From assembly GCF_024639605.1 (NCBI RefSeq), contig NZ_JAHEHZ010000007.1:1-45698 (forward strand): a stretch of 45,698 nt of DNA, in the 5' to 3' direction. This DNA comes from Roseobacter sp. GTDB lineage: Bacteria > Pseudomonadota > Alphaproteobacteria > Rhodobacterales > Rhodobacteraceae. Of this stretch, positions 9,327 to 15,400 are shown in pieces. The stretch's first letter is position 1, and the number at the start of each line of letters is the position of its first letter. Both the position numbers and the translations under genes were made by a program. The notes beneath the pieces were generated by a model. The model was given only the letters and a program-made list of their open reading frames with translations. It made no database searches and had not been told where the DNA came from.

Positions 9327-9394
9327 CCCTTTCGTATTAGCAGTTTTTAAGTAAAACTGTGCCAAAGCTTCCGCAAGTTTACTCGCGGGGACCT

Positions 9395-10789
9395 ATGACT
9401 GCTCATCAGACTATTGCGACACCGGAGAAAAACCGCGCGCTTGCCGAGGCTGCGGCAGCGCTGGGGTATGAGATCGTCGATATCGCGGGCTTTCTTGATC
9501 TGGTCGAAGAGCACGCGCTGGCGCAGCGAAAATGCCTGAAGGTGCTGACAACCCGGGCCGGCGATATGACAAAGGCAAATAACGATGTGCGCGAGGCAGT
9601 GCGCACCATGGCCGGCAGCACGTCAGAGACCGCGCGCGACGTACAGTCTTCGGCAGCACTTGTGCGCCGTTCAGGAGAAAAGACCCAGGCGGTGGCGGAA
9701 TGGGTCACCGAACTGGCGGAACGTACAAACCGGGTCACCGATACGCTGGCTGCCGCCCGGGCAAATAACCAGCAGATTGCGACGATAGCGACCCAGGTAA
9801 ACACCCTTGCCATCAACGCCAAAATCGAGGCCGCGCGCGCGGGCGATGCGGGCAAGGGGTTTGCGGTTGTGGCGGATGCGATTAACAGCCTGTCGGGTAT
9901 GACGCGGGAGGCCGCCCGGGAAATCTCGGAAAATATCGAGACGTTGACGGCCTGGATCGGCGAACTGGGCCGTGAAGCCGCCGATATTGCCGGCGAGGCC
10001 GCCAGCGTTCTGGAGCACGCCGGTGACACTGATACAGCTCTGATCCGGATAGAATCATCCGTTGATGCCGCGAGCCTTCAAGCCCAACGCATTTCCGAGC
10101 AGGCAGACCGGGTGGAGGCGGCGATGACCGATTTCACCCCCGCCGTGAACGAAATCAGAAACGCCGTTGAGAGCACATCAGGAGGGATCGAGCAGACGAA
10201 CAGACGCGTGCTGCGGCTCATCGATACCTCTGAAAAAATCGTTCAGTTTACCGCTTTCCTTACAGACCGGTCAGTGGACACCCCCTTTATCAGTAAGGTT
10301 CGCGAGGTCGCTGCCGGAATCGGTGCGGCCTTTGAGCGGGGCCTTTCAGAGGGCCGCGTTACCAAAGAGCAGCTTTTCGACCGCAGCTACCGCCAGACGG
10401 CAGGTACAGAGCCGGAACAGTTTACTACTGCGGCCACGGCTTTTTTCGACCGGGTGCTGCCAGCGCTGCAGGAACCGGTGACGGCCTTTGACCCGCGGGT
10501 GGTTTTTTGTGCCTCAGTGGATGTGAACGGCTATCTGCCGACCCATAACAGGAAGTTCTCACAGCCGCCGGGACCGGATCCGGTGTGGAATACCGCACAT
10601 TGCCGGAACCGCCGTATCTTTAACGATCGCGTGGGCCTCAAGGCGGGGCGCAATACCGACCCCTTCCTGCTCCAGGTCTATCGCCGGGACATGGGTGGCG
10701 GTGAATTCACCATGATGAAAGATCTTTCTGCGCCTGTAATGGTAGGCGGGCGGCACTGGGGCGGCGTGCGCCTCGCCTATACCTTCTGA
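9395..10789 (+). CDS. Soluble methyl-accepting chemotaxis protein with C-terminal sensor-like domain
   Basis: '[40 protein letters not shown]' MCP signalling tip; no TM segment; C-terminal '[87 protein letters not shown]' resembles a PAS/Cache-type module. Confidence 0.88.
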
Positions 10790-10794
10790 GCGGC

Positions 10795-10833
10795 AAAAAA
10801 AAGCGCCGCACATCCGGGACAGGATGGCGGCGC
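10795..10833 (-). terminator. Rho-independent terminator downstream of the small ORF 10959-11087
   Basis: Minus strand: GCGCCGCCATCCTGTCCCGGATGTGCGGCGC followed by TTTTTTTT. Confidence 0.85.
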
Positions 10834-10958
10834 AGGTGAAAGCGTCTCTCATGTGGGACCCGGTCATACGGTCAGAACGGGGAACAGGCAGTGTTCGTTC
10901 TGAGCACAGTGTTGGGACAGTGCAACAGGTATGGCCGGCACGAGATCGCAGGCAGAAA

Positions 10959-11087
10959 TCAGATAAACGAAGGCAGATGCAGGCCGACCATGAGGATCAC
11001 CACAAGAGCCGCAGCCCCGGCAACATCCTGAACCAGCGTGGCCTGTGACCGTGTCGCTAAAGTTTTGATCATCGAAAGCGTTTGCAT
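10959..11087 (-). CDS. 42-aa putative single-pass membrane protein (not in ORF track)
   Basis: ATG CAA ACG ... translates MQTLSMIKTLATRSQATLVQDVAGAAALVVILMVGLHLPSFI*; GGAG 7 nt upstream of ATG; hydrophobic VAGAAALVVILMVGLHL; own terminator at 10795-10833. Confidence 0.7.
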   Translation of the reverse strand: MQTLSMIKTLATRSQATLVQDVAGAAALVVILMVGLHLPSFI

Positions 11088-11140
11088 CTGCTGTCTCCGT
11101 TTGTTGCTTATTTGTTCTCATATCCTTAAGGACATGTAAA

Positions 11141-11155
11141 GAACTTTTTAAGAAC
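11141..11155. promoter_or_regulatory. Putative LexA (SOS) box, alphaproteobacterial type
   Basis: GAAC-TTTTTAA-GAAC: exact match to GAACN7GAAC (= GTTCN7GTTC), 53 bp upstream of the small ORF start. Confidence 0.68.
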
Positions 11156-11183
11156 ATTAGTGAACATTCTGATGCGCGCGCAG

Positions 11184-15400
<4,217 letters not shown>

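Follow-up and report, generated by a model that had tools for sequence, protein, structure and literature searches.

How members of the family Rhodobacteraceae halt cell division in response to DNA damage is mostly unsettled. These are abundant marine bacteria that include model phototrophs and producers of gene transfer agents. The question addressed here is whether a 42-codon open reading frame (ORF) next to recG, in a 45,698-nucleotide stretch of Roseobacter sp. DNA (hereafter, the window, that is, the whole stretch analysed), is a genuine gene, and whether it belongs to a LexA-controlled damage response. An earlier note, made from the sequence alone, had described a minus-strand ORF with GGAG 7 nt before the ATG, a GAACN7GAAC box 53 bp upstream of the start and a terminator with a T8 tract, and had read them as a compact, independent transcription unit for a hydrophobic single-helix micro-protein. 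All these elements are present, and our analysis supports the reading of the unit; the note's further proposal, a SidA/TisB-like protein induced by DNA damage, is treated here as a hypothesis. Beyond that description, we identified a second LexA-like site further downstream, overlapping the putative -10 element, and a 3'UTR occupied by a conserved cloverleaf RNA.

All features of the unit lie on the minus strand. The conserved 5' neighbour, recG (11184..13274; NCBIfam RecG equivalog, 1094 bits), was found directly upstream of the peptide gene at every homolog locus checked. The recG stop is located 28 bp from the first LexA-type box (box 1; GTTCTTAAAAAGTTC, 11141..11155, reading GAACTTTTTAAGAAC on the plus strand), and no terminator is visible in this interval (11156-11183), so that read-through from recG could supply basal expression. 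An additional GTTC half-site (11162..11165) is found 6 bp upstream of box 1, which is followed by a putative -35 element, TTTACA (11135..11140), the second LexA-type box (box 2; GAACAAATAAGCAAC, 11103..11117), the Shine-Dalgarno sequence GGAG (11095..11098), the 42-codon ORF for a predicted single-pass membrane micro-protein (10959..11087, stop codon included), the cloverleaf RNA (10839..10958) and an intrinsic terminator with a GC-rich stem and T8 (10795..10833). The terminator was not listed by a simple terminator scanner, but folding does show the hairpin. Judged by its sequence, the locus is a compact, independent transcription unit that combines a protein, a composite operator and a structured RNA. 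The convergent plus-strand gene (9359-10789), in which only an MCP signalling domain was recognised (Pfam PF00015), stops a few bases short of the shared terminator; its C-terminal region is distinctive and has no Pfam match.

The ORF (frame 11087->10959) encodes MQTLSMIKTLATRSQATLVQDVAGAAALVVILMVGLHLPSFI. Six-frame searches recovered the peptide from each of 18 genomes sampled within the genus and from the greater part of the family, and a profile built from 28 peptide sequences (A1) has matches in 265 of the 298 Rhodobacteraceae genera. This count is a lower bound, because in the three HMM-negative genera that were inspected a divergent peptide is still encoded behind the operator, twice with recG just upstream and once near a contig end. 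Beyond the Rhodobacteraceae, the profile retrieved nothing credible in a 190-genome sample of the class. For informative close pairs within the genus, dN/dS of the peptide gene is 0.03-0.16, with 0.38 for one pair that is almost identical and differs at very few sites; pN/pS averages 0.34, synonymous sites being almost saturated, and variation is highest at the third codon position. A second reading frame is also open at most loci, which is uninformative by itself. Peptide conservation and purifying selection, which the earlier note had named as the checks on its proposal, are thus both borne out. Codon-level selection together with homologs across the family rules out a spurious ORF, and on this substitution pattern the 42-codon ORF is a real gene under purifying selection.

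AlphaFold2 predicted a single helix comprising residues 2-41 (mean pLDDT 89), in line with the proposed single-helix micro-protein. The N-terminal half of the peptide is polar and carries K/R residues, and the C-terminal half is hydrophobic; under the positive-inside rule, the polar, K/R-bearing N-terminal half suggests an N-in topology with the C-terminal helix in the membrane. In the alignment to profile A1, D21, G24 and L36 are invariant, and L28 and P39 nearly so. The profile matched no family in Pfam, NCBIfam or PADLOC, and there was no convincing match in PHROGs (at most one of the 28 members, best E 0.042); on the PHROGs and PADLOC results, a phage or defence origin was rejected. Homology to solved structures was not found. 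By these searches, the micro-protein is a new protein family.

The bare GTTCN7GTTC box occurs twice in the window, with 1.2 expected, and 74 times in the organism's own genome. Because the bare box is no commoner than chance, the case for it rests on conservation. Box 1 is found at the same position in all inspected promoters of peptide-selected homologs. Approximately 70 bp are conserved upstream of the ORF, and two LexA-like sites flank and overlap the putative -35 and -10 elements. The consensus of 173 loci, in an alignment anchored on the box for which about two-thirds of the loci were chosen with a related pattern and with which the peptide-selected loci agree, is GTTCnCAAATGTTCTYAAAAAGTTCTTTACA-N11-AnaTGAGAACAAAgnggCAACA, with the N11 variable. 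The operator thus reads GTTC-N6-GTTC-N7-GTTC, followed by the -35 element, of which TTTAC is nearly invariant, and each letter of the extra GTTC half-site is kept in ~92-95% of the 173 loci. Box 2, also conserved in this set, is GAACN7CAAC in the window, and the putative -10 lies inside it: its first six bases, GAACAA, are located 17 bp from TTTACA. In most species, box 2 has one mismatch to GAACN7GAAC; it is perfect in L016, L085, the Rhodobacter sphaeroides-like chromosome L244, G099 and G137. From the inferred transcription start, the predicted 5'UTR measures 16 nt in the window, and its median across 53 loci is 25 nt.

When 85,462 species genomes were scanned with the composite operator, at least 118 stretches matched. 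Among the matches listed, all titles are Rhodobacterales-type or unclassified alphaproteobacterial, the peptide follows directly 3' in 117 of 118, recG precedes directly and in the same orientation in 116 of 118, and the spacing from TTTACA to the second element is 16 in 110 of 118. With a looser composite pattern, 225 of 298 genera show exactly one occurrence per genome, and the reversed control shows none. The box is therefore conserved at orthologous loci, a further check that the earlier note had named, and conservation together with the reversed control rules out a chance box.

The published LexA motif of alphaproteobacteria is GTTC-N7-GTTC (PMC8565304), and boxes of this type are carried by the recA, lexA and imuA-/imuB-like genes of the same genome, with names taken from translated ORFs rather than from a profile search. 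These boxes (L042, recA; L109, lexA; L108 and L115, imuB-/imuA-like) have the form TGTTC-N6-TGTTC and can serve the genus as an SOS reference set. Box 1 ends in AAGTTC, compared with TGTTC in the reference boxes. Three further loci (L111, L112 and L113) have AT-rich GTTCN7GTTC boxes in front of genes without confident identity, and could possibly mark additional SOS genes.

LexA itself (TIGR00498) was found in 284 of the 298 family genera. The peptide is absent in 5 of 14 LexA-negative genera vs 28 of 284 LexA-positive genera (Fisher p = 0.012, ignoring phylogeny and MAG incompleteness), and, when only good genomes are considered, in 3 of 6 vs 24 of 257 (p = 0.016, ignoring phylogeny and assembly gaps). 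One complete genome in three contigs (G193; L248, L255) keeps the operator and the peptide yet lacks a canonical LexA: all that it shows is a match to the LexA C-terminal half with 26% identity and S24-peptidase-like fragments. Either LexA was lost or replaced in G193, or another regulator would act on the operator. Several other genera with the operator and without a detected LexA are represented by fragmented assemblies. Since G193 retains the operator without canonical LexA, we consider LexA control of the peptide unit likely rather than certain.

Conserved blocks were also seen downstream of the ORF across relatives. In the window, this tail folds at -62.7 kcal/mol (z = -6.1), and the tails of many relatives fold individually into the same plan, namely, an unpaired UUUCUGCC leader, a long closing stem, two to three inner hairpins and then the terminator. 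The leader in the window carries an unpaired CUGCC, the closing stem (GCG.UCUCGUG.CCGG/CCGG.GUCCCA.CAUGAGA..CGC) contains a C-rich 3' bulge, GUCCCA, and the inner hairpins, including GAACA-CUGCC-UGUUC, have C-rich loops. With all loci in a plain MAFFT alignment, RNAalifold found the terminator and nothing else, and a covariance model was therefore built instead, from 12 sequences (R1). This model matches 46 of 55 loci and has exactly one match, 3' of the ORF, in every genome of the same genus. The alignments follow the modelled structure by construction, so the comparison that counts is with shuffled and slid versions. In the 46 sequences, two-sided changes are found in 39 of 43 pairs, 87.5% of cells pair vs 66.1% after shuffling, and covariation scores 0.494, compared with 0.167 for shuffles (0 of 500 reach 0.494), with slid structures scoring ~0.05-0.09. 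A second model, built from the 46-sequence set (R2) and applied to promoter-pattern loci with few genomes in common, gave closely matching results: 41 of 43 pairs with two-sided changes, 85.9% vs 59.2% pairing and a score of 0.521 vs 0.153 shuffled. Under strict filters, R2 was found in 42 of 121 family genera, with one copy each, and had no match among the sampled genomes of the class outside the family. Among the 4227 families of Rfam, none matched at gathering; the best, sX13, scored 17.9 bits vs a gathering score of 50. The cloverleaf, at ~120 bp, is thus apparently a new, undescribed RNA family that is absent from Rfam.

The C-rich motifs are enriched in the tails. CUGCC, the commonest predicted loop, occurs 2.45 times per tail vs 0.59 in shuffled sequences, CUGUCC 0.91 vs 0.11 times, and CUGCCUG has 1.53 copies per 3'UTR vs 0.04. 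The anti-Shine-Dalgarno motif CCUCC is depleted, on which ground a classical CCUCC ('cuckoo') sRNA was rejected. The predicted accessibility of the start region is the same with and without the 3' module (0.32 vs 0.33), which lends no support to hiding of the Shine-Dalgarno sequence in cis. Given that the tail leaves the predicted start accessibility unaltered, action in trans, on a protein or on mRNAs, is tentatively favoured over cis control. The tail of the R. sphaeroides-like L244 is clearly shortened, and at L082, L025, L024 and L030 the operator and peptide are followed by a short tail, by one with no discernible terminator or by one that the model misses. The cloverleaf RNA thus seems to have been reduced or replaced in some lineages.

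Taking these observations together, we regard it as fairly probable that the locus is a LexA-repressed, monocistronic damage-response unit, encoding a membrane protein that holds growth or division and a regulatory cloverleaf RNA. In the undamaged cell, LexA would occupy the series of GTTC/GAAC half-sites that lies on either side of the -35 and extends across the -10. Upon damage, RecA would trigger LexA self-cleavage, releasing a transcript of ~310 nt with a short leader, which would be translated into the 42-residue single-pass inner-membrane protein and would end in the ~120-nt cloverleaf RNA and the terminator. The micro-protein would most likely bind a membrane partner, either in the division machinery at the septum or in a membrane complex coupled to energy, and thereby hold growth or division while repair proceeds. 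The cloverleaf, which exposes the similar C-rich motifs CUGCC and CUGUCC, is most likely a regulatory RNA that would pair with, or titrate, a partner.

By analogy with known systems, a SidA-like division brake and a DinQ/TisB-like membrane effect would be the two serious options for the protein. That it binds a late divisome component (FtsW, FtsI or FtsN) and delays septation during repair is a tentative but plausible reading, given that in its size, its one TM helix and its LexA-type control the protein resembles Caulobacter SidA (PMC4211646), and that the invariant D21, G24 and L36 and the near-invariant P39, in or beside the helix, suggest a specific partner; against it, no homolog was detected outside the family in the 190-genome class sample. 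We find it rather doubtful that the protein is instead a toxin that depolarises the membrane or induces dormancy, with the 3' structure only stabilising or processing the mRNA in cis. A single hydrophobic helix of ~40 residues and a multi-site operator consistent with tight repression would fit such a toxin. Near-universal, single-copy conservation, as seen for the peptide, is unusual for type I toxins, and neither the database searches (no Pfam, NCBIfam or PADLOC family, no convincing PHROGs match) nor the short predicted 5'UTR (median 25 nt), which leaves scant room for an IstR-type antisense site, point in this direction. A precedent does exist in Escherichia coli DinQ, an SOS-regulated, toxic single-TM peptide of the inner membrane (PMC3567139).

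The regulator and the RNA raise alternatives of their own. The operator could belong to another regulator, or represent a core promoter with an UP element and an activator site, such that the gene would not be SOS-controlled; conservation exceeding the LexA half-sites (the A-tract, TTTAC and the fixed spacing), the dissimilarity of box 1 to the LexA sites of the same genome and the case of G193 all speak for this. We nevertheless judge it unlikely, as the columns of the GTTC/GAAC half-sites rank with the most invariant and stand at LexA spacing, several lineages carry box 2 as a perfect GAACN7GAAC, and LexA is present in nearly all genera. Least probable, in our view, is a locus whose chief product is the RNA, as an SOS-induced sRNA, with the ORF in a secondary role. 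The strong covariation and repeated loop motifs would agree with this, but selection at the protein level is strong, the protein is found in 265 of 298 genera vs 42 of 121 for the RNA model at strict filters, and the L244 tail is shortened. The LexA-repressed unit that couples a membrane protein to a regulatory RNA is the reading we prefer.

If so, the locus probably represents a damage response common to a whole bacterial family, unannotated beside recG and overlooked so far. A near-universal, single-copy, LexA-boxed micro-protein at recG would be a candidate for the missing division-arrest effector of these bacteria. A bolder version, to which we give little weight, is a family-wide dual-function SOS RNA, in which the micro-protein would brake division or energetics and the CUGCC/CUGUCC loops would titrate an RNA-binding protein or silence mRNAs. 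In that case, the SOS response of Rhodobacteraceae would have a post-transcriptional arm.

Finally, we compared the unit with known systems. The openly searchable main texts of the literature yielded no description of the locus, and recG is unmentioned in the main text of the sRNA papers on Ruegeria pomeroyi and Paracoccus and of the D. shibae LexA-site papers. Regulation of TisB rests on a long structured 5'UTR and an antisense RNA. With its short predicted 5'UTR, of 16 nt in the window and a median of 25 nt across loci, the peptide unit departs from this TisB/IstR type, which makes TisB a poor structural analogue. Like DinQ and TisB, the micro-protein is very short, has a single membrane helix and appears to be under SOS control; however, a repeat or antisense arrangement was not recognised at the peptide locus, the structured RNA lies 3' rather than 5', and the peptide is near-universal in one family, whereas DinQ and TisB are patchy. 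DidA of Caulobacter, which is controlled by DriD, is likewise a small TM protein linked to damage, but it is SOS-independent (PMC4211646), in contrast to the LexA-type operator described here.

Within the same family, R. sphaeroides UdsC is an sRNA in the 3'UTR of the ~300-nt small-protein mRNA RSP_7527 (PMC6238624, PMC9779115), and resembles the peptide unit in mRNA length and in the position of the RNA. It differs in its RpoHII promoter, unrelated sequence and location ~25 kb away (1,264,762 for the peptide gene vs 1,289,874 for the RSP_7527 start), and the RSP_7527 region has no match to the peptide profile; identity of the two loci is ruled out by location and sequence. sX13, the top sub-threshold Rfam match, and CcsR-type sRNAs also display C-rich motifs in hairpin loops, but the score is far under the family threshold and CCUCC is depleted in the cloverleaf tails. 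The dual-function RNAs SgrS/SgrT and Pos19 similarly combine a small ORF and a putative regulatory RNA on one short RNA, but with another stimulus and structure, and trans action in the peptide unit would be our extrapolation. In Caulobacter, SidA is a small LexA-controlled TM inhibitor that acts on FtsW/I/N (PMC4211646); both it and the peptide are small single-TM proteins behind an alphaproteobacterial LexA box, but the synteny with recG and the conserved 3' cloverleaf RNA belong to the roseobacter locus.
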